The notes under the pieces were generated by a model, which did not search any database, was not told the DNA's origin, and worked only from the letters and a program-made list of their open reading frames with translations. A stretch of 64,000 nt of DNA from an uncultured Desulfatitalea sp. (lineage in GTDB: Bacteria > Desulfobacterota > Desulfobacteria > Desulfobacterales > Desulfosarcinaceae): positions 372,001-436,000 of the forward strand of contig CALMNL010000006.1 of NCBI GenBank assembly GCA_937868765.1, written 5' to 3'. Below are positions 23,069 through 63,481 of the stretch, piece by piece. The first letter of the stretch is position 1, and each line of letters begins with the position of its first letter. The translations under genes were made by a program, and so were the position numbers.

Positions 23069-23527
23069 TTACTTACCGGCGACGGAGCGGAACTGTCGGG
23101 GCGGAGCGGATTGGCGCGGTTCGCGGTAAAAGGGATAGACCAGGTTGCCCTCCACCTGGCTCTGGATGACGCGATAGGCGATGCGGACCGGAAGAAGATT
23201 GCGATCCTTGTTCGCGGGGGAATCGTCGAAGGAGACGCCGGTGATGACGATCCGTTTCTCCCAGCGCTTCACGGCGTCGATCACGTAATGGCGGATCAGG
23301 CCCTTCAGCACCTCGTCGTTCGGTTCGAACACCAGGTCCTTGAGTTTCGAGCCGAATTCCGGGCGCATGAACCGTTCGCCCGGCCGGGTGCCGAGAATCT
23401 GGATGATGCTCTCGTGGATGTGTTCGTGCTCGGTGGAGGTGGCCGAGGAAACCTGCGCGCCACCGGACCGCCGCTGAAAGCGGAAAGGGAACTTAAGCCC
23501 GCGTCCGAGAAAATCCAAGGCCATCAA
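23069..23527 (-). CDS. Baseplate wedge protein gpW/gp25
   Basis: 152 residues, T4 gp25 / P2 gpW family. HIHESIIQILGTRPGERFMR followed by PEFGSKLKDLVFEPND is diagnostic. gp25 links sheath to baseplate and contains a lysozyme-like fold remnant. The stop TAA lies within the conserved motif at 23070-23099. It overlaps the upstream gene by four bases. Confidence 0.88.
   Translation of the reverse strand: MMALDFLGRGLKFPFRFQRRSGGAQVSSATSTEHEHIHESIIQILGTRPGERFMRPEFGSKLKDLVFEPNDEVLKGLIRHYVIDAVKRWEKRIVITGVSFDDSPANKDRNLLPVRIAYRVIQSQVEGNLVYPFYREPRQSAPPRQFRSVAGK
23070..23099 (-). promoter_or_regulatory. Conserved phage motif, copy 6 (CCGAC-N15-CCGGTAAGTA)
   Basis: Minus-strand CCGAC and CCGGTAAGTA separated by exactly 15 bp, 69 bp upstream of the baseplate J gene. 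Same spacing in five other copies in the window. Confidence 0.6.
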
Positions 23528-24495
23528 TCACGCTCCTCGCAGATGCAGGCGGGCGGGTCACCCGAACCCGTGTCTCCATTGGAGACATCGTCGTCCGGGA
23601 AATGAATGACCAAGTCCAACCCGTTCGCCATGGCGACATGGATCGTGCCGTCGGCTTCGATGACGCCCTTGTGACCGCTTTCCATGGCCGTAAAGCCCTT
23701 GGCCCCGCCGGGTACCAGACGAACCTCGATATCCTCTCCCACGCCCTCGATCCGGGAAATGCCGAGCACCACCGAGGTGCCCGCGGGGTTGCCGATCATG
23801 GCGGTGCGCTCTGACTGAAATACATCCAGCCGGTAACCGCCCGGCAGCTCCACACGGCAGCGCCCCTGCGCGGTCTGTGTCGGATCGATGTCCAGGGGCA
23901 GCCCTTCGATCCCGGCCGCTTCGTGGGTCACACGCACCGCCTCGGGCTTGAGCATCAGCTCCCGGCCGTCGGGAAGCATCACCACGCCGCCGCGCGCGGG
24001 TTCGAGAGGGGTCACAGAGCCATCCATGCCGATGGCCGTCAGTCTTCCATCCGGTCCCACCCGAACCATGCCACCGTCGGCGAGGGTGAAAATGCGTCCT
24101 CCGTCGGGAAGATCTCTCACGGCGGTACCCGCCGGCATGGCGGCGAAGGGGTCAAAGTCCTGCGGCATCGGTTGATCCACGACCTGCATGTATTGCTGCG
24201 CGCTCTCGGCATGCGCCTCCAATACCGTTTGAGCTTCCGCCCGAAGGACTTCGGATGCGTCGTGACTCTGCTGCAGAATGCCTTTGATCTCGGCCAGGCT
24301 GTCTCGAATCTGTCGGAGATAGGGCTCATCACCCTCGCAGTCCGTCACGCCGAGACCGGCCGCAAGCAGACGCACTAGTGCCATGATCTCGTAATGGGAC
24401 GGCGACGAACTCGTCTGCTCGATGATCGGCCCGCCTTCTTCGCCGTAGCCATATCCGTACCCGTATCCAAAACCTTCTTCGTCCAACATCACCAT
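23524..24495 (-). CDS. Virion-associated protein with a beta-repeat domain
   Basis: 323 residues. The N-terminus has a GYGYGYGYGEEGG low-complexity run, then a helical segment (about 30-110), then short beta hairpin repeats of the form LPDGGRIFTLADGGMVRVGP and DGRLTAIGMDGSVTPLEP, like small RHS/NHL-type strands. The C-terminus ends in a CxC pair (CICEERD). It lies between gp25 and the PAAR tip and may sit at the hub or spike. No family recognised. Confidence 0.55.
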   Translation of the reverse strand: MVMLDEEGFGYGYGYGYGEEGGPIIEQTSSSPSHYEIMALVRLLAAGLGVTDCEGDEPYLRQIRDSLAEIKGILQQSHDASEVLRAEAQTVLEAHAESAQQYMQVVDQPMPQDFDPFAAMPAGTAVRDLPDGGRIFTLADGGMVRVGPDGRLTAIGMDGSVTPLEPARGGVVMLPDGRELMLKPEAVRVTHEAAGIEGLPLDIDPTQTAQGRCRVELPGGYRLDVFQSERTAMIGNPAGTSVVLGISRIEGVGEDIEVRLVPGGAKGFTAMESGHKGVIEADGTIHVAMANGLDLVIHFPDDDVSNGDTGSGDPPACICEERD

Positions 24496-24507
24496 AACGA
24501 ATAACTC

Positions 24508-24795
24508 CTATGACGGAATGCCATAGCCGCCTCCGCTTTGCTCGATTACTTCAACTTGGATGTAGCGGACACTATCCCGCGAAGGAGAATCGTAGACCAT
24601 GATGACCGTCGCTCCGACACTCCAACCGAGTTGCACTCGTCCTTCCCAGTCGACCCAGGCAATGTCCGAATTGACGGATTCGTACTGCAATTCGCCCTGG
24701 GGGTTTCCACGGATCGAAAGGGGGATCGACATGGACCACCAACTGCGGGTGACCCTGATCGATTTTGGAAATACATCCCAGTAACGGAAATCCAT
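24508..24795 (-). CDS. Small phage protein of unknown function
   Basis: 95 residues, tryptophan-rich and beta-predicted (RSWWSMSIPLSIRG, AWVDWEGRVQLGWSVGA). It follows the PAAR gene by 9 bp in the baseplate operon. Probably a tip or baseplate component; no family recognised. Confidence 0.5.
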   Translation of the reverse strand: MDFRYWDVFPKSIRVTRSWWSMSIPLSIRGNPQGELQYESVNSDIAWVDWEGRVQLGWSVGATVIMVYDSPSRDSVRYIQVEVIEQSGGGYGIPS

Positions 24796-24804
24796 CCTCG
24801 GTCC

Positions 24805-25068
24805 TCAGTCGTTGGTGTTCAGGCTGCCGGTCACGATGATCGCGCCGCAGGCCGTGATGTCGCCGATGCGTGCGTTGGGCAGCCCTTCGGTCGCGGTGTC
24901 GAGGCTGCCCGTCACTATGGGGGTCACGCCGTGGCCCGGTATCGGGCAGACGTGCAGATCGCCCAGCCGCGCCGCAGGTCTTCCGTTGACGACGGTGCGA
25001 AGCGCGCCGGTGACGATCACGCCGCCGTGACTGGAGATATCGCCGAGTCTCGCCTGGGGTCTTGCCAT
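24805..25068 (-). CDS. PAAR-motif spike-tip protein
   Basis: 87 residues from MARPQARLGD at 25068; a longer frame upstream is not supported. Three PAAR-like repeats are visible: ARLGDISSHGGVIVTGA, VNGRPAARLGDLHVCPIPGH and NARIGDITACGAIIVTGS. PAAR proteins cap the trimeric spike of contractile tails with a zinc-stabilised cone. It lies with the spike gene in the same operon. Confidence 0.88.
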   Translation of the reverse strand: MARPQARLGDISSHGGVIVTGALRTVVNGRPAARLGDLHVCPIPGHGVTPIVTGSLDTATEGLPNARIGDITACGAIIVTGSLNTND

Positions 25069-25070
25069 GG

Positions 25071-26216: not shown

Positions 26217-27266
26217 CTACGGGTTGATCAACACCTTGTTCGTCGAGCGGATGACGATGTTCCCCATGACAGCGTCCATGAGGATCATGCTTCCGGACTT
26301 GTCCGTGGCTTGGATGCGCTCCTGACCGGCTGCCGCGTTCATCACGACGACTTGGCCGGCCTTGTCCGTAAGACGGATCATCTCGGTCCCGGCGGTGGAA
26401 TCGATAAGGATTTCCTGTGTGCCGCAGAGGCCCCAGATGTGGACCTTCTCCTTGCCATTGGTGGTGTCGATGAGAATCTTCTGCCACCGGGCACGGGACT
26501 TGTCGCAGGACTGGATGTGGATTTTTTCCTTGTCCTTCCAGGCCTCCCAGCGCACGAACTGGCGGCACAGATCGGTGATCTCGATCCGGGCCTTCTGGTC
26601 TTTGATGTCCGAGTCGATGTCGAGCTGGTCGCCCTGCTCGGCGTCCCTGGTTCCCCGGCGGCGCGCATTGCCGGTCTGAACGTCGCGCTTCACGCGGCAT
26701 TCCATGTGAAGAATCTGTCCGGCCCGGTCGATGACCTTGAGGAACTCCTCCTCGTCCCGGTCGTCGAGAACGATGGTGTGACCGGTCTCGGTCTTGAGAA
26801 GAACCTTGCGGCGCGGGCAGTAGTACGGCGGGTGGCCGTGGTGTTTCTTGTGCTCCAGGTCGTCCCGCCGGTCGGGCTTGTGTTCGAGCTTGTCCTCACA
26901 GTCGGTGCAGGTCGGATCGGAGCACAGGCGTTTGGATTCCTCCGGTTGTTCTCCGGGGTTCGTCTTGGCCAGCCAGACGCCGGACCAGATCGGGTATTGG
27001 ACGTTGCCGCCCTCGAACTCGGCCCAGACGGAAGCCCCTTCCTCGGGGATGAGAAACACGCCGATGTCCTCGTTTCCGCCGTAGGCAAAGCAGGGCCACG
27101 CCCATTCAGACCAGTTCTCCTTGCCGGTTCCGAGCACCGCAGGAATTTCGAGCCGGCAGCGGCCGAGCCGCTCCGGATCGTTGTTGTCCCTCAAGAACGC
27201 TCTATACTTTCCGTACCAGCGGTTTTTGTAGCGTTCCTCGTGCTGGCGGTCCTGTGTCTCGATCAC
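26217..27266 (-). CDS. Baseplate spike protein (gpV/gp5/VgrG-like)
   Basis: 349 residues. The N-terminal OB-fold is shown by YGKYRAFLRDNNDPERLGRC followed by RLEIPAVLG and GVFLIPEEGASVWAEFEGGN and YPIWSGVW. The C-terminal half has beta-helix repeats (KILIDTTNGKEKVHIWG, then EILIDSTAGTEMIRLTD, then QERIQATDKSGSMILMD), forming the needle. It carries the PAAR tip and punctures the outer membrane. A cysteine-rich insert (CSDPTCTDCEDK) near 112-122 is unusual and may bind metal. Confidence 0.88.
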   Translation of the reverse strand: MIETQDRQHEERYKNRWYGKYRAFLRDNNDPERLGRCRLEIPAVLGTGKENWSEWAWPCFAYGGNEDIGVFLIPEEGASVWAEFEGGNVQYPIWSGVWLAKTNPGEQPEESKRLCSDPTCTDCEDKLEHKPDRRDDLEHKKHHGHPPYYCPRRKVLLKTETGHTIVLDDRDEEEFLKVIDRAGQILHMECRVKRDVQTGNARRRGTRDAEQGDQLDIDSDIKDQKARIEITDLCRQFVRWEAWKDKEKIHIQSCDKSRARWQKILIDTTNGKEKVHIWGLCGTQEILIDSTAGTEMIRLTDKAGQVVVMNAAAGQERIQATDKSGSMILMDAVMGNIVIRSTNKVLINP

Positions 27267-27281
27267 GATTCGTCCCTCGCA

Positions 27282-27608
27282 TTACTTCAGCGGCAGGAAG
27301 CCCCGAAGCACCTCGCGCACTATGCGGGTGACGGTTCCGTCCGGCGTCTTCTTCGGATCGGCCTTGGCCACGGCATGACGAAGGGCGTCCTGCGCCGCGG
27401 TTTCGAGCTTGAGTTCCTGGCCGGCGACGCCGGTTTTGACCTCTTTCGCTCCGAGCCGCTCGATGACGCCGATCACCGCGTCAAGTGCCGAGGCCTTGGC
27501 CCGGCCCCAGGCCGTGAGCTTGATGACGGTAACGAGCGTCACAAACAAGGTCGCGATGAGTTCCTTGTGGTCCAGGACGAAAGTCAGAATCTGTTCAAGC
27601 TGTTGCAT
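27282..27608 (-). CDS. Holin-like small membrane protein
   Basis: 108 residues from ATG 27608 (GGAGG eight bases upstream; a GTG at 27617 is an alternative). One membrane helix is visible early (LIATLFVTLVTVIKL), followed by a soluble C-terminal domain of about 70 residues. It overlaps the peptidase gene upstream. Position beside the endolysin suggests a holin or lysis accessory role, but the long soluble tail is not typical. Confidence 0.55.
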   Translation of the reverse strand: MQQLEQILTFVLDHKELIATLFVTLVTVIKLTAWGRAKASALDAVIGVIERLGAKEVKTGVAGQELKLETAAQDALRHAVAKADPKKTPDGTVTRIVREVLRGFLPLK

Positions 27609-28026
27609 TGCGTTCACCTCCGTTGGTTTTCATGGCTTCTTCGAACGAAACGTATTGGCCGTCGAGGTGTCCCCATCGGGTCCGCACCTCGCGGATGTCC
27701 ACGTGGACAAATCCTTGCTCCGGGTAGACGCCGATTCCGCCGTTACGGAAGGCGGCCACCTGCTCGGCGAGTTCGTACATCCCGGTGACGGATAAGCTCT
27801 TGATCACGATGTCCGCGGCGTGTCCGCGCAGATGCCGACTCTGTTTTGCACCGCCTACCACCCGGTTGTGCTCGGGGCAGCGGTAGCCGCTGGTGACGCG
27901 GATTGGAGCGTTTGCGAGGTCTCGCAACTCCTGGAGCGCATCCACCAGGCGTGGATCGATGTCGGCCTTGCCGCAGCAACGGCAGGCGAACTCGCTTCTG
28001 GAGAAATTCCGGCTCAGATCTCCCAT
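27595..28026 (-). CDS. Peptidase M15 family endolysin (D-Ala-D-Ala carboxypeptidase-like)
   Basis: 143 residues, M15_3 family. The zinc and catalytic motifs are intact: TSGYRCPEHNRVVGG, KQSRHLRGHAADIVI (first His and Asp ligands) and QGFVHVDIREVR (third ligand). Such enzymes cut peptidoglycan cross-links and serve as phage endolysins. No signal peptide is present, so a holin would be needed. It starts 15 bp after the hub gene. Confidence 0.85.
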   Translation of the reverse strand: MGDLSRNFSRSEFACRCCGKADIDPRLVDALQELRDLANAPIRVTSGYRCPEHNRVVGGAKQSRHLRGHAADIVIKSLSVTGMYELAEQVAAFRNGGIGVYPEQGFVHVDIREVRTRWGHLDGQYVSFEEAMKTNGGERNATA

Positions 28027-28040: not shown

Positions 28041-29306
28041 TTACAGCCTCCGCCCGCTATCCGCGTCGATGGTCACCATCGGCGGCGGCTCTTCCTTCGG
28101 CGTTGGCGGAGCTTCCTGGTCGTTCTGCTTGCCCTTGGCCTCGTCCGACTTGTCGCCGGCCCCTTTGCCCAGAGCGTTTTTCTTGAGTTTCAGTTCGCAG
28201 TGATATCCGCCCTCGCCGAAAGCGTGGCGGACCGAATGGCAGTAGTAGACGCCCGAGAATTTGCGGCCCACGCCCTTGACCTCCACGTTCTGCTTGGCGC
28301 GCAGCGCGGGGATACCGATGGTCACCGCGTCGGCTTCCACCTGACGGAGTTCCGCCTCGCGAAATTTCCCCTCGGAAAGGTCCTGTGCCGGTTCCTGCCG
28401 GGGCTCCTCGTGAAAGCCCTCGGAACGGTCAAAGGTGGGGACCACCTGCCCGGACTCCTGCTCCTTGTAAGCCCCTTCGCCGGTGTTCCCATCCACCAGA
28501 TAGGTCCGTTTCCCCAGCGAGGTCCGCTCCGGGGTGGTATCGTTGTTGGCCTTGTGCTCGACCGGCTCCTTCTTGCGCGGGTCCACGCCCACGGCCTTGG
28601 TCTCGACGCCCGCTCCCTTGGCCCCCTGCGATTGCGTCGAGGGGCGGAATGAACGTAGAACGCCTTTGCGGTCGGTGAAGTACTCGAGGATCGCGGCGGG
28701 CTTCTTGTCCAGATCGCGGGGATGGAAATGCAGCTCGTCGTCCTGGATGTAGAAGACGTATCCGGTGACGCCGTCGCCGTCCTTGTCCCGCGCCTTTCCG
28801 GCCAGTTCCTTGAGAAACTGGGCGTCGGAAACGTTACTCTGCGTTACGCGCAGATGGCGGGCTTTCGTGGGCGTAACCACCGGACTGAGGCCGTTGGCCC
28901 CTGCGATCTCCTCGGCGATCTCGGAATAGAGAATGCCGGGAGCGGGCTTCTGCCAGACCTTCTGGTTCTCCTTCCCGGCCAGCTTGAAGCCTTTGTCATA
29001 GGCCTTGATGCGAATGGTCGGGTCACCGTCCTCCGGGAAGTCGTAATCGATATCCTTGATGACGGCTTTCTTTCGCGGCGAGAGATTGCCGACATACCCG
29101 AAGCGTGCGACGATCTCGTTGCCCTCTTGGAACAGGGGATCGTCGACGAACTGGAGGTTCCGGTCGGTGACCGCCAGCTCCAGGACGTCGAGTTCCTCCT
29201 CGTTGTCCTCGAAGACGAACGAAGTGATCTCTTGCGTGATATCCGCCGAGAGGGTCTGCCCCTCGATCTGGATCAGAAAGGTCGGTTTGAAGGTGTCGAT
29301 ATCCAT
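28041..29306 (-). CDS. Late control D / hub protein (gpD)
   Basis: 421 residues, phage late control D family, a baseplate hub related to T4 gp27 and the VgrG base. Typical segments are LELAVTDRNLQFVDDPLFQ, FGYVGNLSPRKKAVIKDI, DKGFKLAGKENQKVWQKP and YSEIAEEIAGANGLSP. The C-terminal 100 residues are charged and low in complexity. One conserved 30-bp motif lies 46 bp upstream. Confidence 0.85.
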   Translation of the reverse strand: MDIDTFKPTFLIQIEGQTLSADITQEITSFVFEDNEEELDVLELAVTDRNLQFVDDPLFQEGNEIVARFGYVGNLSPRKKAVIKDIDYDFPEDGDPTIRIKAYDKGFKLAGKENQKVWQKPAPGILYSEIAEEIAGANGLSPVVTPTKARHLRVTQSNVSDAQFLKELAGKARDKDGDGVTGYVFYIQDDELHFHPRDLDKKPAAILEYFTDRKGVLRSFRPSTQSQGAKGAGVETKAVGVDPRKKEPVEHKANNDTTPERTSLGKRTYLVDGNTGEGAYKEQESGQVVPTFDRSEGFHEEPRQEPAQDLSEGKFREAELRQVEADAVTIGIPALRAKQNVEVKGVGRKFSGVYYCHSVRHAFGEGGYHCELKLKKNALGKGAGDKSDEAKGKQNDQEAPPTPKEEPPPMVTIDADSGRRL

Positions 29307-29351: not shown

Positions 29352-29381
29352 TACTTACCGGCGCGCGGCGCGAGGTGTCGG
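29352..29381 (-). promoter_or_regulatory. Conserved phage motif, copy 5 (CCGAC-N15-CCGGTAAGTA)
   Basis: Minus-strand CCGAC and CCGGTAAGTA with a 15-bp spacer, in the 98-bp gap between the LysM gene and the gpD gene. Confidence 0.6.
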
Positions 29382-30162: not shown

Positions 30163-30164
30163 GG

Positions 30165-35701: not shown

Positions 35702-37558
35702 TTACCCGGTCTTGAATATCTCTTTGAAATCAGCCCCCGTGGCGGTGAGCACGAAGTTGAGCTCGATGAATTCCGCCGTCTTGGTCGGCTTGACGAAGAC
35801 GCGCGCCACGAGTTCGTTGCGGTCGATCACGGCCGGGGTGTTGGTCTCCTCGTCGCACTGGACGGCGAAGTCGTAGAGCCCGCCCTTGTCCTTTATGTCC
35901 TGCATGAAGGGGTTGATCAGCCGGATCAGCGCCCGCCAAGTCTGCGGGTTGTTGGGTTCGAAGACCACGAAGCGCGAGGACTCGGCGATGGCCTCCTCGA
36001 TGAACATCATCAGCCGCCGCACGTTCACGCGGTCGAGGGCCGAGGGCTGGCTTTGCAGGGTCTTCTGCCCCCAGATGTTGATGCCGCTGTCGGGGAAGGA
36101 GGCGATCACGTTGACGCCTTCGGGATAGAGGACGTCCCGTTCGCCCCGGCTGGTCTTGTAGCCCAGGGACAAGGCGTTGAAGACCCGGCCGCGGTCGATA
36201 CCAGCGGGCGCGTACCAGACATGGGTCTTCTTGTCGCTGCGGGCGTAGCACCCGGCCACGGCTCCGCTGGGCGGAACGAGCTTGCGCTTGCCGGTCACCG
36301 GGTCGTTGATCTCGATCCAGGGATAGTAGAGCGCGGCATAAGACGAGTTGAACGCCCCGTGGGAGTACATCCCCTGGCCCTTGCGGAAATCCACCGCTTC
36401 CAGGGGTTCGAGGTGAATGGGCGCTTCGGCCAGAAGCATGAGGTCCTGGCGGTTTTCCGCATAGGTGATGCCGGCGTGGATCACCTCGGCGGTCGTGACG
36501 CCGGGAACCATGATCAGATTCAGCGCGTCGATCTCGTCGAAGGCGTAGAACCCGGTGTGCTGGGAGGGATCGCCGGAGTAGTCGGCGTCGTCCAGCCCCG
36601 TAAGACCGTCGTCTCCTCTCGAAAGATCGAACACACCGATCACCGGCCGGTCCGACGGAAGGCCGGATGCCGTTCCAAGGTCCTCGACGGTGATGAAGTC
36701 CGACCGTTCGTTGACAGCCAACTCCACATGATTCGGAGCCGCTTCGTCCATGGAGAGGTCCTTGAAGACCTCAACGACCTCACCCTTGTGGCGGACCACC
36801 AGGTTGAACGCGCCGCTCGGATCGAGAGAACCGTCTTCTACCTGAACGGAGAGCCGTGCGCCCCAGGTTCCTTCATCGGCCGCGCGTACCTTGAGTGTGT
36901 CCATCGCGTCCATGCCTCCGGACAGATTCGCCGAGGCCGCGGCTTGGACAATGCCCGCATCCTGCGTTTCCGCCGTGACCAGCGCGGAGGCCTCCGGAGA
37001 CCCGAAGACCGCGGCGACCACCTGGTCCGCTGTGGATACAGGATCGCCCGCCCCGTCGGTGGCCAGGTTGACGGTGACGGCCTGTCCGAGGACGCCGATA
37101 GACAAAGGGGTGTCATTTCCCGCAGCGACGAGTTCGACGGAGACGGCGTTTCCCGCGGCACCAAGCTGAATCGCCCGCCACGCGATGCGATCCGTGCCGA
37201 CGGTGCCGGTTGCGAGTGACGCCGTCGCGGCGCGCCGGTCCTTGAGGACGGCTTGCGCCTTCACGGCGGTCAGGGTGTTCCGGTCCGTGGGATCGGTCAG
37301 ATGGGCGATGCGGTTCACGAAAAGGACGGAGCCGCCGTTATCGAAAAAAGCCCTTGCGGCGTAGGCGAGGTATCCGGCCTGCATGTAGGAGCCGAATTTG
37401 TTGATGAACTGCTCCCAGCTCGTGACCAGCACGGGCTTATTGATCGGGCCGCGTTCGGCCACGCCCACCATGCCGCAGGAGGAGGTGGATATCTGCTTGA
37501 CGTAGAAACTGAAGTCGACTTCGCGGGTATAGATGCCCGGTGATAGATATGTGCCCAT
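35702..37558 (-). CDS. Contractile tail sheath protein
   Basis: 618 residues, tail sheath family. The N-terminus (YLSPGIYTREVDFSFYVKQI) and FVNRIAH are typical, and the C-terminal domain carries GVNVIASFPDSGINIWGQKT, NVRRLMMFIEEAIAESSRF and VFEPNNPQTWRALIRLIN, all sheath signatures. A large internal insert (about 100-290) forms the surface domain. Contraction drives the tube through the cell envelope. Confidence 0.93.
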   Translation of the reverse strand: MGTYLSPGIYTREVDFSFYVKQISTSSCGMVGVAERGPINKPVLVTSWEQFINKFGSYMQAGYLAYAARAFFDNGGSVLFVNRIAHLTDPTDRNTLTAVKAQAVLKDRRAATASLATGTVGTDRIAWRAIQLGAAGNAVSVELVAAGNDTPLSIGVLGQAVTVNLATDGAGDPVSTADQVVAAVFGSPEASALVTAETQDAGIVQAAASANLSGGMDAMDTLKVRAADEGTWGARLSVQVEDGSLDPSGAFNLVVRHKGEVVEVFKDLSMDEAAPNHVELAVNERSDFITVEDLGTASGLPSDRPVIGVFDLSRGDDGLTGLDDADYSGDPSQHTGFYAFDEIDALNLIMVPGVTTAEVIHAGITYAENRQDLMLLAEAPIHLEPLEAVDFRKGQGMYSHGAFNSSYAALYYPWIEINDPVTGKRKLVPPSGAVAGCYARSDKKTHVWYAPAGIDRGRVFNALSLGYKTSRGERDVLYPEGVNVIASFPDSGINIWGQKTLQSQPSALDRVNVRRLMMFIEEAIAESSRFVVFEPNNPQTWRALIRLINPFMQDIKDKGGLYDFAVQCDEETNTPAVIDRNELVARVFVKPTKTAEFIELNFVLTATGADFKEIFKTG

Positions 37559-37561: not shown

Positions 37562-37852
37562 TTACCTCCGTTTCCGACGTTTGCCGCCGTTTGCGCCGGT
37601 GCTTTCCGTCTCGGTCTCGACCGGCTCTTCCCGCGGCGTCTCGGGTTCGGGAACGGTCGGCGTCGCCGGCGTCAGCGACACGAAGCCCCGCTTTGCCGCG
37701 GCATCGATCTCGGGGGAAATGTCGTCCTCTCCCAGCGTTCTGCGCTCGCGGGGATTCAGATGAAGTCCCCGGCCGCTTCCCGAGATGTGGAACGTGAGCG
37801 GTTGGAACAGAAGATTCTTGATTTCGATCACAGTGGTTCCTCCTTGTTTCAT
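37562..37852 (-). CDS. Small phage protein of unknown function
   Basis: 96 residues. A compact N-terminal beta part (IEIKNLLFQPLTFHISGSGR) is followed by a Pro/Glu/Thr-rich tail that ends in a basic cluster (GGKRRKRR). It sits between tail terminator and sheath genes. A similar short N-terminal module is found in the gene at 46034-46396, suggesting related decoration-like domains. Confidence 0.55.
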   Translation of the reverse strand: MKQGGTTVIEIKNLLFQPLTFHISGSGRGLHLNPRERRTLGEDDISPEIDAAAKRGFVSLTPATPTVPEPETPREEPVETETESTGANGGKRRKRR

Positions 37853-38418
37853 GGGGTATGGAGCCGATCCTCCTCGACGCCGTCCCGGAACTCGAACCGC
37901 CGGTCTTTGATGAGCGGGCCCGTTTCGACGAGGCCGTCGTAAACCGGACAGTCCTCGATCCGGCAGCGGCCGCTGCTCTGGCGCAGGTTCGACAGGTTCA
38001 CCCGTCGCAATCCGCCCAAGGGAACGATCTCCGTCAGGTTGAGGAAGCCTCGGTCTTCCACGGCCAGGATCGGGTTGAGCTGATAAAAACGGGCCACTCT
38101 TTCCTGGAGGTCCAGCAGTTCACCTTCGTGGCCGGCGGTGACGATGACGTCGAAGTCGAGGTGGTAGAGCCGGGGATACCGGCACTCCTCATAAACGAGG
38201 TTCGGGATGTCCTTTTCCTGCATACGGGCCATGGTGCGTCGGTCTCCGTTTTCCGCCAGCGTCGGTCCCTGCAGAATCAAGCTCGGGACGTTGGGCACCT
38301 CGAAGACGTCGTCAGCGGCGACGAGCAGCGCGTCCGGGACGATCTCCGCCTTGACCAGGCGGATCAGATTTTCAACGACTGTGCGAACGGTTTCCAAAGT
38401 CAGGTTCCTCCGGTTCAA
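37849..38418 (-). CDS. Tail terminator / neck-type protein
   Basis: 189 residues from TTG 38418; a TTG at 38397 with GGAGG upstream is an alternative start. IPNLVYEECRYPRLYHLDFDVIV and a helical N-terminus (ETVRTVVENLIRLVKAEI) fit tail-completion proteins. It follows the gp10-like protein and precedes the sheath in gene order. The conserved 30-bp motif (copy 4) lies 19 bp before the start. Confidence 0.55.
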   Translation of the reverse strand: MNRRNLTLETVRTVVENLIRLVKAEIVPDALLVAADDVFEVPNVPSLILQGPTLAENGDRRTMARMQEKDIPNLVYEECRYPRLYHLDFDVIVTAGHEGELLDLQERVARFYQLNPILAVEDRGFLNLTEIVPLGGLRRVNLSNLRQSSGRCRIEDCPVYDGLVETGPLIKDRRFEFRDGVEEDRLHTP

Positions 38419-38436: not shown

Positions 38437-38466
38437 TACCTACCGGAGGCGGCCGGGAAGTGTCGG
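38437..38466 (-). promoter_or_regulatory. Conserved phage motif, copy 4 (CCGAC-N15-CCGGTAGGTA)
   Basis: Minus-strand CCGAC and CCGGTAGGTA separated by 15 bp, directly before the tail operon. It lies back to back with the promoter of the XRE-ImmA gene. Confidence 0.65.
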
Positions 38467-38486
38467 AGCCGCTTTTTCGTATAAAA

Positions 38487-38518
38487 ATACCACTTGACAA
38501 AATTTTGTTGAGTGGTAT
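38487..38518. promoter_or_regulatory. 32-bp near-perfect palindromic operator
   Basis: ATACCACT-TG-ACAAAATTTTGT-TG-AGTGGTAT is a palindrome mismatched only at positions 9-10 and their partners. It covers the -35 and most of the spacer of the plus-strand promoter, so it is a probable site for the XRE domain encoded just downstream. Confidence 0.65.
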
Positions 38519-38521
38519 ATT
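38494..38521 (+). promoter_or_regulatory. Promoter of the XRE-ImmA/PIN operon
   Basis: TTGACA (38494-38499), 16 bp, then TATATT (38516-38521). Both lie within or beside the palindrome. Transcription leads into AAAGGAGG and ATG 38549. Confidence 0.65.
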
Positions 38522-38548
38522 TAAGAAAAACACAGAAAGGAGGCGACC

Positions 38549-40516: not shown

Positions 40517-40526
40517 AGACCGCCTA

Positions 40527-50600: not shown

Positions 50601-51533
50601 GCCGAGGAAGGACTCGAAGAACTCCGCGGCATTGGCGCGGGTCACAGTCTTGTGGTCGGTCTCGTAGTGCTTGGTCTTGGAGTCTTCGACAAGGGTCAGC
50701 CCTTCCCAATAGGTCATCAGCCCTTCCACGAAGTGGTAGGATTTTTCGTAGTTGGTGGTCGAGAACTCCGTAGCATAGGGCGGATCGAAATAGGCCAGGT
50801 CGGCCTTGGCCTCCGGCAAGAAATCGTTGATGTCCTTGCGGGACGCCTTGCACTCCTTGCCGTTGTCGAAAACGAGGGCGTTGATGCGGGCAACGTTCTT
50901 GCGCAGGCGCTCCTTGAATTCCTCCGGGGTGTCCTCGCGCTTGCCGTAGCGGGTCGACGACGAGAAATGTCCGAAGCCGCCCTTGCCGGACATGCAGGTC
51001 TTGCCCAGGGCGAAGAGAGCGATGTCTTTCTTGAAACCCGAGAGTTTGTCGATGTTCGACCGGATCGTGTCGATCAGGCCGTGGACGCCCTTGGCGAAGA
51101 AGATGCCCTTGAAGTTGTCCCGGACGAAGGTTCCGGCCTTCGCGTTGTCCGCGAGCAGCGCCTCCAGGTCCTCATCGGAGAGACGCACCTTGTCGTTCTC
51201 GATGATCGCCCGGGCCGCGTGGTGGCAGTAGCGCAGCCGGTCGTTGGCCAGGACCCGCAGGCCCTTGGTCTTGTACATGTAGGCCACGACAGCCGAGCCG
51301 GAAAACGCGTCGACGACGGATTCCACGCCGTCCGGGGTGTGCTTCCAAATCCAATCCACCAGCTTCTGCTTCGAGCCGATGTAGTTGGTGATGTACTTGG
51401 GCCGCTGTTCCGGCGACGGCTCCTCGGCAGCGGCCTCGGCCTGGGCCTCGAGCGCTTCGAAGTCCAGGTCAAGGGCGGCGTCCGTTTCGAGTAGGAACGC
51501 CAGCCGGTCACGGTCGGTTGCGAAAAGTTCCAT
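47670..51533 (-). CDS. Fusion: two D12 DNA adenine methyltransferases + prohead protease + scaffold
   Basis: 1287 residues. Domain 1 (about 46-375): D12-class N6-adenine MTase with YIGSKQKL (51-58), motif I DAFSGSAVVAY (from 75) and catalytic DPPY (250-253). Residues about 390-490 are a spacer of unknown fold (RYRVRNPDEFEPDSFRRKPL, then DGWTMEKAKEWIDKHEAGRA). Domain 2 (about 520-865): second MTase with FMGSKYLMLG, DAFSGGANVAY (from 551) and DPPY (739-742). Domain 3 (about 910-1075): prohead-protease-like, with His950 in DLKHSQDF and Ser1005 in ISQVSMEC, plus a CSICGK-CVH zinc-ribbon insert. Domain 4 (about 1120-1287): coiled-coil scaffold. Each catalytic site looks intact. The MTases may be packaged in the head. 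Confidence 0.85.
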   Translation of the reverse strand: MELFATDRDRLAFLLETDAALDLDFEALEAQAEAAAEEPSPEQRPKYITNYIGSKQKLVDWIWKHTPDGVESVVDAFSGSAVVAYMYKTKGLRVLANDRLRYCHHAARAIIENDKVRLSDEDLEALLADNAKAGTFVRDNFKGIFFAKGVHGLIDTIRSNIDKLSGFKKDIALFALGKTCMSGKGGFGHFSSSTRYGKREDTPEEFKERLRKNVARINALVFDNGKECKASRKDINDFLPEAKADLAYFDPPYATEFSTTNYEKSYHFVEGLMTYWEGLTLVEDSKTKHYETDHKTVTRANAAEFFESFLGNSKHFPHWLISYRDHAYPNESEMRRIIASMGRDSSMRSHDHHYAITSRHGEASHAKERLFICRRAEGAERSAKASTQDELSAVAVWEETENEVRYRVRNPDEFEPDSFRRKPLDGVDGVAIIIGRLKKEFVPDGGNPRSMVLQAYRFVRKTEKNPDGWTMEKAKEWIDKHEAGRAVDAALRVEENLIALADAPLGESLDLLSCQAGKAESVRVTGFMGSKYLMLGWIESHVPKDAESILDAFSGGANVAYHFKRKGLKVIANDLLRYPHHLARAVVENSSETLSDEDVDRILAPNADAGMFIVDHFYGYYYTKPVLRWLDQVWANIQKLHGYKKDLALAALGTTVKAKSAFGQFSRSKMHRRADLDTDASLEQSQLSNPPLSKFIESFRRSVGQLNRLVFDNGKECKAFNLDAAETVRRFGADVLYLDPPYVTEFGSNDYEDSLHFIEGLMTRWADKELQDNPRRNYPSRTRYTKESIRSLMETMAADARGKYGTVLLSYRDRAYPREEEIKEIFAQHYGLVRVRGMEVDYNIAKDIGREGKHARELLFVASKSRGAARSKADSRAPAACHTSFPVELSLDTFAGLQTEAAALDQAAGDPQFTFILCRAGTNKNGDHFTPDELAARYMTAVNKKIDLKHSQDFTDIVGGIVGADYVEDESGGRIECAGELYVSDSPHAQLAYKLIRKGIISQVSMECDYEEGECSICGKRVVSKSDYCVHLRKNKGGELQGQPVYEILHGVTFTGLGLLDRKGADENARILKVAAAENDGSTTHSEGGPTMDEKQKDTEERAAEAAKKKDDGGGGTAPDDKTRLKELERENKELKQQVLALQKQLEELEAEKKAAANRSRAQKLLRKIEKSGLAFESDEDREQELSRLAGLSDEAFAASEAAFERMMKAGSRGHSEDKDAKDRGAGAETAKASCGCDDPPLRSDAGVRPKDVEDKKTSLEDRLKSGFMAAYRQRVATATGEPVSTN

Positions 51534-51637: not shown

Positions 51638-51667
51638 TACCTACCGGAGACCGTTGAAAAGTGTCGG
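51638..51667 (-). promoter_or_regulatory. Conserved phage motif, copy 3 (CCGAC-N15-CCGGTAGGTA)
   Basis: Minus-strand CCGAC and CCGGTAGGTA with a 15-bp spacer, 105 bp upstream of the methyltransferase-protease-scaffold gene. Confidence 0.65.
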
Positions 51668-55400: not shown

Positions 55401-57055
55401 TATCCTGCGGGGGACTCCGGCACGACCACTTTCGCCGCGGTCTGTTCAACCGCCAGCTTCGCCTTGTTGATTGCGGCCTTCTCGGCTGCTTCGAGGGCTT
55501 CCTTCTTGGCCTTTTCCGCCATCTCCTCACCGGCAGCCTTTTCCAGCGCCTTGACGAGCTGCTGCTTGTTCTTGAGCGGGCCGATGTGGTGCTTTTTCTT
55601 GGCGTCGATCAGGGACCCGCCCTTGAGCCCCGCATGATCCGCTCCAGGCTCCAACTCATCGAGAACGTCGATGACGTCCTGCTTAGTCATGTTCAGCGAG
55701 ATGCCCTTGGCCTTGGCCATCTCCTGCAGCTCGACCACGGTAAGGTCGTGCAGCCCTCCGGTCGGTTGGATTTTCTTGAGCTGCTCGGCGAGTTGCTGCG
55801 CCTGTTTGAGAGATGCCTGCTTCTGGGCGAGAAGCTGAACCAGGTCGTCCTTGGTGCGGAGCAGGCCGATCTTGTGTTGTTTGAGCTTGGCGTCGAGCGT
55901 GGCTCCCGCGAGAGTGGAGTGGTCCACGCCGGGCTCGGCCGCATCGAGCAGCTTGATGAAGTCGGCCTTGGTCCTGGCGATGGAGACGCCGTTCTGCTTG
56001 GCCAGGGTCTGGAGTTGCTTCACGCTCAAAGTGTTCAGGTCGGCGATCTGTCCGCCCTCGAAGGCTGCCTTGAGCTTCGCGTCTTCCGCCGCCTTGGTCT
56101 TCGCCTGCTCTTCGATGGTCTGGGGCGGGATGATGCACGCGGCGGGTTCAGCCGCCGCTTTCGCCCCCAGCTCTCCTCCGCAGATCACCAGGGGCCACGC
56201 GACCACGCTCGTGCAGCGGCAGTTGGGATGGGCCGGTTGCTGGGGAAAGCGGTTCGTGTCGAACACCTTGCCGTCCAGCGGTCCGCAGACCGGGCAAACC
56301 CGCTCGTCCTCCATGGTCATCCATTCGAGCTTCCGGACTCCGACCTGGTCGTGGAACTTGAGTCGCCCCTGGTTATGGGCGCGCAGGACCTCCGTGCGGG
56401 CGATCACCTCCATGCGGTACTGGGCCTTGGTGAACACCTTGGAACCGGCATAACGGAAGGATTCCGGGTCTTTCACCACGCGCCCGAGGTCGCGGACGAT
56501 GTCCTCGACGCCCTTACCGGTGGCGATGCCGCCCATCACGACGCGTTTGATGCCGTCGGCCAGCTCGCGGTGGACGTCGCCGGCCAAGACCAGGTTGTAA
56601 TTGGTCATGAAATCGAGGGCATCCGTGTCCACCAGGGTGAACACTCGGGTGGCGAGCTTGTCGATACCCTCCGGGGTCAAGTCACGGTAGAAGGGAAGCT
56701 GGGCCGCGGCGAACTCGTCGATGCCGCGGTAGACGCCTTGGCGGAAGGATGTCTTGGCCGTCTGCCGGAAAAGCAGCGTCTGCTCACGGTGCAGGCGGCT
56801 CGTGGTCTCCTGGATGTCGGTTTGCAGTTTCTTGAGGCCTTCGAGGGCGGCGAGCTTGTTGTCAGGGAGGGAGCCGAGGCTCTTGTAGCGGAGGATGGCG
56901 CGGCGCACCTCCTCTTCGGCGGCGGCAAGCATCGCGGTCAGTTCGGCGACCGTTTGCTCCGTATAGAGATTGCGGCCGCGGACGCTCTTCTCCGTGGCCA
57001 GACGAATGGCTTCGGCTTGAGAAAGAGGCTGTTTGGCCGCGAGCGCACCGATCAT
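52490..57055 (-). CDS. Giant MuF-type polyvalent head protein with kinase-like and further effector-like domains
   Basis: About 1521 residues from ATG 57055, whose ATGA overlaps the portal stop (a GTG at 57073 is possible). Numbering below is from that GTG. The MuF/SPP1 gp7 domain is residues 1-290, with ARTEVLRAHNQGRL, C260-x2-C263 in RVCPVCGPLDGKVF and HPNCRCTSV (C285, C287). SAP-like helical repeats follow near 345-420, 443-510 and 605-636 (LNTLSVKQLQTLAKQNGVS type). Residues about 700-945 look like a PI3/4-kinase/HipA fold, with RWLFKP, WLISNHDGHAKQF (819-830) and IDKGQIF (DxG, 841-847). The C-terminal 250 residues (DTGGASYFFTRIKK, GSSDTGLYFK, LPDGRKVEDIVL) resemble toxin-type enzymes but are unassigned. 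Likely packaged and injected. Confidence 0.75.
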   Translation of the reverse strand: MIGALAAKQPLSQAEAIRLATEKSVRGRNLYTEQTVAELTAMLAAAEEEVRRAILRYKSLGSLPDNKLAALEGLKKLQTDIQETTSRLHREQTLLFRQTAKTSFRQGVYRGIDEFAAAQLPFYRDLTPEGIDKLATRVFTLVDTDALDFMTNYNLVLAGDVHRELADGIKRVVMGGIATGKGVEDIVRDLGRVVKDPESFRYAGSKVFTKAQYRMEVIARTEVLRAHNQGRLKFHDQVGVRKLEWMTMEDERVCPVCGPLDGKVFDTNRFPQQPAHPNCRCTSVVAWPLVICGGELGAKAAAEPAACIIPPQTIEEQAKTKAAEDAKLKAAFEGGQIADLNTLSVKQLQTLAKQNGVSIARTKADFIKLLDAAEPGVDHSTLAGATLDAKLKQHKIGLLRTKDDLVQLLAQKQASLKQAQQLAEQLKKIQPTGGLHDLTVVELQEMAKAKGISLNMTKQDVIDVLDELEPGADHAGLKGGSLIDAKKKHHIGPLKNKQQLVKALEKAAGEEMAEKAKKEALEAAEKAAINKAKLAVEQTAAKVVVPESPAGYADFLSAVKDAESALAASPGLPKETLEGHAKELAFKKKLFQDQVASMKVGDLKTLAKDSKVKHWQWANKDELVSLFTETDPAKIEAAKAGIETKHAAWLEKHGGKKKVAAPEPAKPAPTPKPTQPSPPVFTKKGAQFEETDAAWIAKGKPGNFKPAGKAQVGGAHSKEFWTDEAGDRWLFKPVERGGDEFIAYGEEAAYKIGRLIDPDAVEVRTIRLNGRLGSIQKWRTDLKDRFDFAGLDLADLTTLDIEQIQREHVVDWLISNHDGHAKQFLRGRDGKVYGIDKGQIFKYLGEDRLAVDYHPNAKYGEQEPFYNTVFRTAKEGKVKIDPAATLRYIREVEKVADEDYLAVLRPYAEGRFGGDESRKQAFYDTALARKRNLRRDFEGFYADVLGRRDFRFEDVLDALPKTRLGPTEEALLEEVRSLGWQGKVLPFDEDDIEDQNALIFVETLKGKQRTVVKMKVRPEAEGKLLDALRKAGVDTTAVRVGEALPQDVFAQDILSAVKTVNHHATDQQYNQGTLKKATDHLKALRRLADSTDPDERAMARSYIDWIEKVQEAAREHKPVAGRFDAYLKKHAAMEKKPKEAPFTVRRTKVLQAKREIKNGELVVVNEAADNSALFRGRGMKAGEQYEIDFGDGTRAVYRPWSDKNLYAQQGEFELVLPDRPDAKSLERAMERMESLGIKAGAATPQDAELLYLHKQAYLAKVDREPDYKRLVEELDRRAAGKEERVREIRGFWEKRLGVKDITRMPGYDPMGEYQAAFKDPAKRAGYRHQYRFDISDADIEKQMKGYGLHHRLTNGEDVASFIDAALGNNGAMVSTVEKLRAGVPVGGMSPEADMDTGGASYFFTRIKKLPTAGGSSDTGLYFKKRMLRRMDAISYDHDAFGRVRDEYVSNHRGSTPEEWKQFARRGGNETIFKYSVTLLDNIDVIVVGSEREKQRLIEVFHNRKIMKLPDGRKVEDIVLVR

Positions 57056-58695
57056 CCCGCGCACTCCCGGCACGCCGGCTGCCGGGACGTCGGTTCCTTT
57101 TCCCGGTCGGAGCCTCGTTCCATCGCAGCGGTCTTCGGGTCGAAGAAACGGCAGACCGGGGTATCGAAGGTGGTTTCGTTTCGCTGGACCCGGCAGTGGT
57201 TGAGGTTGCCGTCGAAATGCGCACAGTCGTCACAGACGGCGGCGATGCTTGCGCGGGCGAACGGTCCGGCCCACGATGCTTCGGCGCGGCTCCCAGCCGG
57301 GTTCTTCGCCGGGTCGAGGCCGAGCATCTCCTGCGCCGTCTCGATGCCCATGATCCCGGCCGTCACCATATCGACGATGGGCTTGATCTGCTTTTCGTCG
57401 AGCATGTCCACCGAGCGCTTCTCGGTCTCCCGGTTGGCGGCCTCGATGTCAGGGTCGAGGTCCATCTTCAGTTGCAGGCTCGAACGGCTGATGAGCTTGC
57501 GGTCGTAGAGCTCGATGAGCAGGCGCTTGAAATCGACCGCGTCCGAGGGATCGAGGTCGTTGAACAGGAACTGGAGCGTCTTGTCTTCCCAGCCTTTGAG
57601 CTCCAACCAGTCGTTGAATATCCAGTTCAGGATGATCCGGGCGGCCTGCTTGATCTCCCGGATCATCACCAGCATCTTCTGGAGGCTCACCGAGGCCGTG
57701 GCGAAGTTAGGGCCGTCCCCGGTCACCAGCGACCGCGAGAGGCCAAGCGCCACGACGATGTCCTCCTTCACTTCCTTGACCTTGTCCTCGACGTTGAGGA
57801 CCTGCCCCTCGGTGCCATGGGTCTCGACCGTGACGTAGAAGGGGACGACCAAGCCGCTCTTGAGGTCCATCTTGTTGACCATGTCCCGGACCTGTTCGAG
57901 CATCTTCTGGTCGGGCATGACCATCTTCTGGCCGAACGCGCCTCCGACTTTGAGAAGCCTGAAAGGCGTGGCCCAGCGCTTGGCGATGGCCTGTTCGGCC
58001 CGGCGGTAATCGCGGAGGAGTTCGATGGACTGGAACGCGGGAAGGACGAGCGAGTTGCCCCGTGGCGAGAAGGCCGGCGCGTCCCACTTGAGGTGGAGCA
58101 CCTGCTCCACCGGTAGGTCCAGCCCCTCGTCCGCGGCGGGATTGTCTTCCGGCGTCTGCCGGGCTTCGACGAGCCGACCTTGAGCGTACTTGACCTTGAC
58201 CGAAACCGGGTTGACGCAGACCAGCTCCTCCAGGTCCTTGCCGTCCTTGGTGTACCGTTTGAATCCGACGGCGTCGCCCTTGACCAGGAGCTGGAGAATC
58301 ATGTCCTTGACGAACTCGGAGACGCCCAGGCGGTCGGCGACATCCACGGCATCCCACTTCACCTTCTCGTCATCGCCCGCGATCTTGATCTCGTCACCCA
58401 CAGCGAAAGTGCGCCAGGAGTTGACGCAGTTTTTCACCAGCGGCTCTTCGAGGTAATACTCCCAGGCCTTGCGCGCCCGATCCTCCCAGGAGGCCGGGAT
58501 CGCTTCGGAGGCGTTAATCTTGCTGAACACGGACGGGTCCAACGCCGCGGCCGCTGCCAGAGGAACGAGTACCAAACCGTCCGTCTGCAACTGCGACGGC
58601 TCAGCGCCCGATCCGGATGCCGGGCTGTCGGGTTTCGGGTTGCTTTGCGTTTCCACCGGAGTCCTCTCGGTTTTATGCCCTTGTGGGCGCGACAT
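57052..58695 (-). CDS. Portal protein
   Basis: 547 residues. The portal fold is indicated by WEYYLEEPLVKNCVNSWRTF, DMILQLLVKGDAVGFKRYTK, GLSRSLVTGDGPNFATASVS and EQVLHLKWDAPAFSPRGNS, together with the TerL-portal-MuF order. It forms the dodecameric DNA gate of the head. The C-terminus is odd: after about residue 480 it has a cysteine cluster (VCDDCAHFDGNLNHCRVQ, then TPVCRFFDP, and a final CRECAG), a probable zinc-ribbon-like tail. One conserved motif lies 37 bp upstream. Confidence 0.85.
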   Translation of the reverse strand: MSRPQGHKTERTPVETQSNPKPDSPASGSGAEPSQLQTDGLVLVPLAAAAALDPSVFSKINASEAIPASWEDRARKAWEYYLEEPLVKNCVNSWRTFAVGDEIKIAGDDEKVKWDAVDVADRLGVSEFVKDMILQLLVKGDAVGFKRYTKDGKDLEELVCVNPVSVKVKYAQGRLVEARQTPEDNPAADEGLDLPVEQVLHLKWDAPAFSPRGNSLVLPAFQSIELLRDYRRAEQAIAKRWATPFRLLKVGGAFGQKMVMPDQKMLEQVRDMVNKMDLKSGLVVPFYVTVETHGTEGQVLNVEDKVKEVKEDIVVALGLSRSLVTGDGPNFATASVSLQKMLVMIREIKQAARIILNWIFNDWLELKGWEDKTLQFLFNDLDPSDAVDFKRLLIELYDRKLISRSSLQLKMDLDPDIEAANRETEKRSVDMLDEKQIKPIVDMVTAGIMGIETAQEMLGLDPAKNPAGSRAEASWAGPFARASIAAVCDDCAHFDGNLNHCRVQRNETTFDTPVCRFFDPKTAAMERGSDREKEPTSRQPACRECAG

Positions 58696-58731: not shown

Positions 58732-58761
58732 TATCTACCGGAGGCGGGGAAGGAACGTCGG
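58732..58761 (-). promoter_or_regulatory. Conserved phage motif, copy 2 (CCGAC-N15-CCGGTAGATA)
   Basis: Minus-strand CCGAC and CCGGTAGATA with a 15-bp spacer, in the 208-bp gap between the terminase and portal genes. The gap also holds an AACCCAG/CTGGGTT hairpin at about 58818-58842. Confidence 0.65.
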
Positions 58762-62549: not shown

Positions 62550-62573
62550 CAAGCGGTCCACCCGGGCCGCTTT
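62550..62573 (+). terminator. Rho-independent terminator after the recombinase
   Basis: AAGCGGTCC-ACCC-GGGCCGCTT forms a 9-bp stem (one G-U) with TTTT at its 3' side, 22 bp after the recombinase stop. Confidence 0.75.
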
Positions 62574-62574
62574 T

Positions 62575-62599
62575 CCATTGCCTGCTTCGGACAGGCAAT
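62575..62599. repeat. Perfect 9-bp inverted repeat (CATTGCCTG...CAGGCAATG)
   Basis: Nine-bp arms with a CTTCGGA loop, immediately after the terminator. Could be a recombinase-related or second termination hairpin. Confidence 0.45.
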
Positions 62600-62839
62600 G
62601 ACAAAGGCAAGAGACAGTCAGCCTACAGTCGCATCCCCGAACACATCCGCAGGCAATGATACGGGCAGCATCGGAGCCTTCGGGAGCCGGGCGGAAGCAT
62701 TGATCAAGAGAACCTTCCGCCGACCGGCGGCTTCGGAATGTCAGAGAACACGTCTTATCCGACATTCCCATGCCGGGGGTGGCCGCAAGTCCGCGTGTTT
62801 CGCGGGTCGCTGCATGGCGGGCGGTGGTGTTATCCGACC
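62600..62839. other. Non-coding gap between recombinase and small-terminase genes
   Basis: No supported gene on either strand. Local hairpins such as TTCCGCC-GACC-GGCGGC are present. Given the neighbouring recombinase it could hold recombination sites, but none is identified. Confidence 0.3.
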
Positions 62840-63376
62840 TCATTTCCGTGTTTTCCCTCTCGGGGTCGTTTTCCGGGCCGGTTTCTTCTGCGACTCCGCC
62901 AGCTTCTCAAGCAGAGCCGTGGCCCACTCAGCCGGCGTCGTCTCCGGTCCTTGGGATGCCTCGCCCTCACGGGCGATCTTGGTGGCCTTAAGGTCCTTGA
63001 GGTGACAGCGGATCATCCGGTCCAGCCGCTCGGCGGCGTCCCAGTCGCCGGACTCCTGAGCGCGGCCCAGCTTGAGGAAGTAGACCGCCACCAGCTCGAC
63101 CTGCATGAAGTCCGAACTCTTGTTGAACACGAAGTCCTGGTAGAGCTGGCCGATGATGGCCTCGAAGAGAGGACGCTCCTCCGGAGAGAGGAAGCGGTCG
63201 GCGTAGATGCCGTGGCGCAGGCTGTTCTGGTTGCCAGGGACTGCGCCGCTGCCGGTCCGCGCCTTGGCGGTCTTGCGGACCTCCTGCTCGGGCGCGGCGT
63301 TTCGGTGCCAGCGTTTGAGCTGACCCGCGTCGTGTTTTCCGATCCTGTCTTGGGCCTTGTCGTCTGCCATGGTCAC
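62840..63376 (-). CDS. Terminase small subunit candidate
   Basis: 178 residues. GAVPGNQNSLRHGIYADRFL followed by SPEERPLFEAIIGQLYQDF is a pattern frequent in small terminase-like proteins. A charged, basic C-terminus (KKPARKTTPRGKTRK) follows. It lies upstream of the large terminase though the recombinases stand between. TerS recognises the packaging site. Motif copy 1 lies 76 bp upstream. Confidence 0.65.
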   Translation of the reverse strand: MTMADDKAQDRIGKHDAGQLKRWHRNAAPEQEVRKTAKARTGSGAVPGNQNSLRHGIYADRFLSPEERPLFEAIIGQLYQDFVFNKSSDFMQVELVAVYFLKLGRAQESGDWDAAERLDRMIRCHLKDLKATKIAREGEASQGPETTPAEWATALLEKLAESQKKPARKTTPRGKTRK

Positions 63377-63451
63377 CGCATTTTTCGTTTCGGCATCTCG
63401 GGGTTCGGGGCGGAAGGCGAATTTCGCCCTCTTCAGGGAAAACCCCTTCGA

Positions 63452-63481
63452 TATCTACCGGAGCGGATCGCGATGCGTCGG
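63452..63481 (-). promoter_or_regulatory. Conserved phage motif, copy 1 (CCGAC-N15-CCGGTAGATA)
   Basis: Minus-strand CCGAC and CCGGTAGATA with a 15-bp spacer. The TAG inside the motif is the stop codon of the Mor-like gene. Confidence 0.65.

Follow-up and report, generated by a model that had tools for sequence, protein, structure and literature searches.

Repeated two-block motifs ahead of the gene blocks of an uncultured Desulfatitalea prophage: a probable promoter for the phage's own ECF-like sigma factor

What reads a signal that a prophage repeats, in one orientation, ahead of its gene blocks? The question is raised by a 64,000-nucleotide stretch of an uncultured Desulfatitalea sp. (GenBank assembly GCA_937868765.1, contig CALMNL010000006.1), hereafter the window, which corresponds to C6:372001-436000 of the 5.36-Mb genome. 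The original prediction, made from the letters of the window, had picked out six minus-strand copies of CCGAC-N15-CCGGTARRTA, likened them to a modified -35/-10 pair and proposed a phage late promoter or an activator site. Based on sequence comparison, we consider it probable (roughly 0.86) that the motif is a -35/-10 promoter read by P0001, an extracytoplasmic function (ECF)-like sigma factor encoded by the phage itself. The motif copies in this genome and the sigma gene are as follows; positions above 64,000 are extended window coordinates.

63452-63481, minus strand: copy 1, CCGACGCATCGCGATCCGCTCCGGTAGATA; overlaps the 3' end of the 97-amino-acid (aa) helix-turn-helix (HTH) gene; precedes 62840-63370 (a weak match to the terminase small subunit) and the terminase region
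58732-58761, minus strand: copy 2, CCGACGTTCCTTCCCCGCCTCCGGTAGATA; precedes the portal/minor head block (57052-58656)
51638-51667, minus strand: copy 3, CCGACACTTTTCAACGGTCTCCGGTAGGTA; precedes the 1287-aa methyltransferase-like gene (47670-51533) and the major head block
38437-38466, minus strand: copy 4, CCGACACTTCCCGGCCGCCTCCGGTAGGTA; precedes the sheath/tube/tape measure block (from 37849-38397)
29352-29381, minus strand: copy 5, CCGACACCTCGCGCCGCGCGCCGGTAAGTA; precedes the tail protein/endolysin block (from 28041-29306)
23070-23099, minus strand: copy 6, CCGACAGTTCCGCTCCGTCGCCGGTAAGTA; within the last codons of a gp25-like baseplate wedge gene; precedes the baseplate wedge gene 21592-23001 and the fibre region
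64614-64643, minus strand: extra copy, exact match in the genome search
73768-73797, minus strand: extra copy, exact match in the genome search
82009-82038, minus strand: extra copy, exact match in the genome search
73802-74389, minus strand, just outside the window: P0001, 195-aa ECF-like sigma factor by its profile matches

The six copies in the window were recovered with the coordinates, strand, exact 15-bp spacer and differing spacer sequences originally described. Among 100 dinucleotide shuffles of the window, exact matches averaged 0.00 and no shuffle held six; with up to three mismatches allowed, 15 matches (the six exact and nine with three mismatches) were observed against 4.42 expected. 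A search of the whole genome, along the lines proposed earlier as a check, covered 5,363,837 bases in 18 contigs and returned nine exact copies (backward control, 0), all on the minus strand within C6:395070-454038: the window's six and three beyond it. The relaxed pattern CCGAC-N17-GGTADRTA, run over the whole genome, found the same nine copies and none further. A matrix built from 66 copies of other genomes and scanned over 142 kb scored the nine copies at 24.7-40.5 bits and no other site above 12 bits; the best of 20 shuffles reached 11.9. In that matrix the conserved halves are present by selection and the spacer columns are not, and the spacer shows preferences for T-T-Y at positions 8-10 and Y-T at positions 19-20. 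The spacer is therefore not wholly free, and the two elements extend beyond the halves noted at first, to about CCGACRNTTY and YTCCGGTARGTA.

All nine copies sit in a single myophage-like prophage about 70 kb long. Eight of the nine lie 38-104 bp upstream of the next gene; the ninth lies about 200 bp ahead of a 73-aa open reading frame with a ribosome-binding site, before the recombinase genes. Gaps of 19-105 bp had been given for the window's copies, and our own gene calls required small corrections: 68 bp for the copy at 23070, 45 at 29352, 39 at 38437 (18 if an alternative TTG start is used), 104 at 51638, 75 at 58732 and 81 at 63452. Copies 6 (23070) and 1 (63452) each overlap the preceding gene at its 3' end. 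A function of the motif as coding sequence at gene ends was ruled out, the frame of the stop codon varying among copies and most copies being intergenic. One of the blocks that follow the nine copies is for replication and one for the recombinase; the other seven are the HTH-gene, terminase, portal, head, sheath, tail/lysis and baseplate blocks. Of the words "phage late promoter", the noun fits the placement at gene-block starts, the absence of the motif from the rest of the chromosome and the co-occurrence with a sigma gene described below, whereas "late" is too narrow because copies also precede the replication and recombinase blocks.

The copy at 73768-73797 begins 4 nt past the stop codon of P0001. 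This protein matches Sigma70_r2 above the cut-off (28.4 vs 24) and phrog_1740; its region 4 is apparent only through the family profile and the fold. A 95%-identical homologue (locus L024) matches the sigma70-ECF model TIGR02937 at 44.2 against a cut-off of 42.9, the scan with this model having covered the L024 homologue and family members rather than P0001 itself, and 41 of 43 sigma homologues match it at E up to 0.01, above the cut-off or not. The best PDB sequence matches are of the ECF SigE type. The fold predicted for the L024 homologue has two helical parts (mean pLDDT 81.4), and among its best 50 Foldseek matches most are ECF and other sigma chains, just one of them at E <= 0.001. TM-scores were low for the whole chain (0.24-0.38 by query) and up to 0.67, by target, for single domains; in our view the low whole-chain values reflect a flexible link between the domains (pTM 0.43). 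Profile, PDB sequence search and fold all point to a sigma factor of ECF-like type that has domains 2 and 4.

The placement of a motif copy directly behind the sigma gene recurs across the family. A sigma profile scan found 96 loci, of which 80 were kept; 33 of these, with ten loci from the IMG/VR and GTDB searches, made up an alignment of 43 sigma rows. Within or just past the 3' end of 42 of these genes, at identities down to about 25%, we observed a two-block element with a 15-base spacer (35 fitting the pattern and seven read by eye, namely four of clade C, L278, L279 and L306). The element takes several forms: GGTACGTA, GGTATGTA, TCGGTAAGTA, CCGGTARRTGA, CCGTC/CGGGTA and GCGTC/GCAAAGG. 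At L245, L243, L077, L263, L305, L309, L310, L313-L319, L322 and L323 the sigma frame ends at a TAG or TAA that forms part of the -10 element, and coding sequence and promoter overlap.

The form of the element changes with the sigma factor. CCGTC-N15-CGGGTA was found in only three of 26 records, exactly those whose sigma gene bears it, with two copies each on one strand; the other 23 whole records held none. On the sigma tree, the choice of GAC or GTC in the -35 half required 3 changes, compared with 8.9 when labels were shuffled, near-copies helping the clustering. Co-variation of both halves with the sigma factor is what a sigma-promoter pair predicts, and not what a host-sigma promoter or a border repeat predicts; in these alignments motif specificity appears to follow the sigma factor. 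Together with fixed spacing and single orientation, it bears out the suggested likeness to a modified -35/-10 pair. Residue 176 (Tyr versus Asn, His, Gln, Leu or Cys) covaries with -35 position 4 (counts 27/2/2/8, at most three independent pairs), and is only a lead as to which residue may read that position.

Motif and sigma gene also occur together in other genomes. Searches for relatives of P0001 gave nine loci in IMG/VR and 14 in GTDB genomes. The motif, one mismatch being allowed, was present in 9/9 of the sigma-bearing viral records (backward control, 0) and in 13/14 of the GTDB genomes. In genome-sized records the backward controls for this search gave 0-5 matches per strand, and because chance matches arise there, it is the exact copies near a sigma gene that carry the argument. 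The complete genome of Desulfosarcina alkanivorans (7.3 Mb) holds 14 exact copies, every one of them on the same strand and confined to a 125-kb interval (C1:289-414 kb). They fall in two prophage regions, each of which has a sigma factor, 78% and 50% identical to P0001. These two regions (L209-L215, C1:283001-423000) are related and near one another, each with its own sigma factor and with a common motif, and cross-talk between them is possible.

The exact motif was also sought in 2.9 million viral contigs of IMG/VR, with no sigma gene as bait. The CCGGTAGGTA form occurred in 54 stretches and the CCGGTAAGTA (AAGTA) form, at spacer 15, in at least 120; controls of the latter gave 9 stretches at spacer 14, 15 at spacer 16 and 32 for the reversed N15 pattern. 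Two copies were present in 24 of the 80 N15 AAGTA-form stretches listed and in 0 of 56 control stretches. These stretches are not independent, as contigs recur and many are related. We tested further the 41 contigs of at least 20 kb, among the matches listed, that were not already sigma-bearing records; loci from the AAGTA-form scan (L170-L208) entered only the tblastn search for sigma. Two or more copies were held by 25 of the 41, in 24 of these on one strand only, and the family sigma was present in 12 of the 25 and in 4 of the 16 single-copy contigs.

The order of events that we propose is as follows. After induction or infection, an early promoter, presumably dependent on a host sigma factor, would give rise to P0001. 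P0001 would recruit the host core RNA polymerase to both elements, CCGACR (often followed by NTTY) as the -35 element and (YT)CCGGTARRTA as the -10 element. Transcription would then initiate directly behind the sigma factor's own gene, into the replication block, and also at the recombinase, HTH regulator, terminase, portal, head, sheath and tape, lysis and baseplate blocks. By this means the virus would turn the host's RNA polymerase towards the genes for viral replication and particle building. The sigma contacts, transcript starts, time order and early trigger in this scheme are inferred.

Several observations weigh against this reading. Region 4 of P0001 falls below the Pfam cut-off (Sigma70_r4_2, 13.9 vs 25.7 bits). 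Total motif matches in two GTDB genomes, G016 and G017, did not exceed controls (1 vs 2 and 4 vs 6). No sigma match was found in 13 of the 25 multi-copy IMG/VR contigs; four contigs without one (G046, G052, G060 and G064) start downstream of the place that the sigma gene occupies in collinear contigs and, judged by this synteny, look truncated. In G051 the sigma gene lies on the strand opposite to its motifs. No element was seen behind L303, the one exception in the 43-row alignment, nor behind the sigma genes L256/L239, L228 and L083, and at L022 the nearest element is 2.5 kb from the sigma gene. The second half of the clade D element (L324, L326 and L327; three of the 42) is little like the others, making its assignment doubtful, and clades C and D have one copy each; a search of whole records for more elements of these clades gave none that was convincing, one 16-of-19 match in G087 and, on the other strand of G084, a second copy that matches at 18 of 19 positions. 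Two of the three CCGTC/CGGGTA records (G067 and G068) are near-copies, and this form is common to two sigma groups that do not form one clade; the base that follows GGTA in the -10 half is not confined to particular clades. The residue-176 rule is broken in four of 39 scored rows, and L278 would be a fifth. Finally, computational promoter prediction can go wrong: for Salmonella phage 7-11 an earlier in silico prediction (PMC4331800) missed the consensus of the promoters that were mapped afterwards (PMC8948821).

Of the other explanations, the one that survives best, at low probability, is that the motif is the site of a phage activator, Mor/C- or Ogr-like, that aids host sigma70 polymerase. 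The one activator-like phage gene that we noticed is:

63455-63748, minus strand: P0002, 97-aa helix-turn-helix gene; weak match to phrog_836 "late transcriptional activator"

P0002 also matches Mor below the cut-off, its gene ends at a motif copy, and it was found in 14 of the 18 genomes or records tested, the window's own counted. It was not found in G009, G022, G040 and G051, where sigma and the motif or a variant are present, although G009, G040 and G051 are virus records and may be fragments; moreover, the element variants track the sigma factor. An activator site, named in the original prediction beside the promoter, is thus less likely than a site for a dedicated sigma factor, and P0002 may be a second regulator in the cascade.

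It is highly improbable that the motif is an unusual promoter of a host factor, either sigma70 or an alternative sigma. CCGACA and TARRTA, 18 bp apart, bear a loose likeness to a -35/-10 pair, and a host factor is contradicted by the absence of any further copy elsewhere in the genome, even by the relaxed pattern. A sigma70 scan (TTGACA-N16-18-TATAAT) lists none of the six sites, but it requires T as the sixth -10 base and so excludes the motif by definition.

Homology with two sister prophages, one from an assembly of an uncultured Desulfobacterium (G012) and one from a metagenome-assembled genome of Candidatus Ozemobacter (G011), ends at the 5' edge of four of the copies, as it would where modules join, and there are breaks elsewhere too. 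At copy 4 the break is at 38466, the first base of the motif, against both genomes; further breaks lie at 29387 for copy 5 (G011), at 51676 and 51696 for copy 3, and at 58775 for copy 2 (G012). Against G012 and G011, no break was seen to separate any of the window's six copies from its downstream gene. The breaks could be taken to mean that the motif is a structural or RNA element for recombination, packaging or processing at module borders. That reading is very unlikely: the two blocks keep a fixed spacing and a strict orientation, the element has a conserved position behind sigma genes and co-varies with the sigma factor, and the breaks are consistent with insertions that a promoter tolerates on its upstream side. 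Extra genes seem, from these alignments, to be tolerated upstream of the motif and not between the motif and its block, as a promoter would predict.

Two insertions in the window are absent from both sister prophages. The first, of 2 kb (38467-40536), has two genes, one of them for an HTH regulator on the plus strand that shows a metallo-protease-like match, and may be the site of the repressor or of a defence pair; it carries a near-consensus sigma70 promoter, TTGACA-16-TATATT, at 38494-38521, divergent from copy 4. The second is a 4.2-kb stretch of low GC content (down to 0.455) at 41013-45210, between neck and head genes and for the most part unassigned.

The prophage has its right border at a tRNA-Asn gene (82303-82378 in extended coordinates) and runs leftwards at least to about 8.8 kb, which is where homology to a sister prophage stops. 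It is collinear with the prophages of G012 and G011, both of which also adjoin a tRNA-Asn gene. A search of 142 kb for an attachment site, taken as an exact direct repeat (13 bp or longer) of sequence at the tRNA-Asn border, gave none, nor was the left end found. The minus-strand order is: serine recombinase block; small genes; sigma factor; exonuclease, Sak4, SSB, ERCC4-type nuclease, helicase and primase; HTH gene; terminase; portal and minor head; major head; neck; sheath, tube and tape measure; tail and endolysin; baseplate and fibres. Structural genes in the blocks that follow motif copies are:

57052-58656, minus strand: portal protein, first gene downstream of copy 2
46409-47272, minus strand: major head protein, within the block after copy 3
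35702-37558, minus strand: tail sheath, within the block after copy 4
28041-29306, minus strand: tail protein (phrog_52), first gene downstream of copy 5
21592-23001, minus strand: baseplate wedge subunit, first gene downstream of copy 6

The 1287-aa gene at 47670-51533 has DNA methyltransferase family matches, and its C-terminal part weakly matches a head maturation protease.

Phage sigma factors with bipartite promoters are a kind of system already known. In Salmonella phage 7-11, the sigma factor SaPh711_gp47, which has region 4, is described as recognizing late promoters GTAAtg-(16)-aCTA in vivo and in vitro (PMC8948821). Our phage resembles 7-11 in encoding a sigma factor and in having a bipartite promoter before phage gene blocks; it differs in its consensus and in that 7-11 is lytic (PMC8948821), gp47 and P0001 being compared by description only. 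In Escherichia phage phiEco32, phi32_gp36 is the sigma factor for middle and late genes, with the promoter tAATGTAtA and no region 4 homology (PMC8948821); it too is a phage sigma factor serving phage genes, but its promoter is a single element. P0001 shares with bacterial ECF (group 4) sigma factors its size and its region 2 and region 4 architecture, and differs from them in being phage-borne, beside replication genes. A literature search, with supplements outside its scope, gave no account of the promoters of the P0001 family or of the motif in the texts covered, PMC7397232, PMC8248633 and PMC9203015 included.

Five sigma queries were compared with the INPHARED phages: three matched Wolbachia phage WO and no other phage, and two matched none, one of these being P0001 itself (no match at E <= 0.01). 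The WO proteins, annotated "sigma-70 domain protein" (HQ906662, KX522565 and others), are 21-26% identical at query coverage of at least 90%, with E down to 4e-12. Five of six WO records (L403, L404, L406, L407 and L408) carry a repeated two-block element, GRACRWAWW-N9/10-YCKTRYATATA, both behind the sigma gene and at other places. In MN180251, besides the copy behind the sigma gene, one copy precedes 20472-21173 by 14 nt and another precedes 28063-28404 by 158 nt. HQ906662 likewise has a copy behind the sigma gene, with others 24 nt upstream of 27029-27712 and 38 nt upstream of the gene for the Holliday-junction resolvase. In both records the element runs in the coding direction. Three further records, which have no annotation for comparison, hold the element behind the sigma gene and nearby on the other strand; the sixth record, MW788656, has a weaker form only, read by eye. 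The WO patterns were drawn up after the sequences had been seen (the backward control of one pattern was 0 in all six records), and the records are interrelated and represent few independent cases. WO is like our phage in having a remote sigma homologue and a repeated two-block element behind the sigma gene, and unlike it in the sequence of that element, which is AT-rich, and in a spacing that, as we read it, is off by about 1-2 nt. We regard the WO elements as a candidate WO sigma regulon, and related viruses, possibly including WO, seem to use altered versions of the signal. Phage WO is not known to have been grown outside its hosts' cells.

A sigma-70 subunit has been placed in the WO replication module, in a paper that does not use the word "promoter" (PMC3173496). 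Public Cappable-Seq data exist for Wolbachia (PRJNA1145481). Their authors describe motifs of sigma70-like type together with a TAAAAT motif left unplaced, say that Wolbachia may encode unidentified ECF sigma factors, and observed no sign that the lytic cycle was entered (PMC12558409). A broader proposal, to which we would give even odds, is that a large, mostly uncultured temperate phage lineage, from Desulfobacterota prophages to WO, has one ECF-like lytic-switch sigma factor, whose regulon would open at a promoter on the 3' end of the sigma gene and whose code would have drifted (CCGAC/CCGGTA, CCGTC/CGGGTA, GCGTC/GCAAAGG, GGACGAA/CGTRYATATA); in WO it would be the regulator that switches on phage replication. 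For the Desulfatitalea prophage itself, the reading as a sigma factor's promoter makes a regulon of a raw repeated motif, with one regulator, nine sites and most of a phage genome. The family would give matched sigma-promoter pairs across wide sequence distances, which are needed to learn how sigma sequence sets promoter sequence, and the extension to WO yields a prediction that may be checked in the public Cappable-Seq data.

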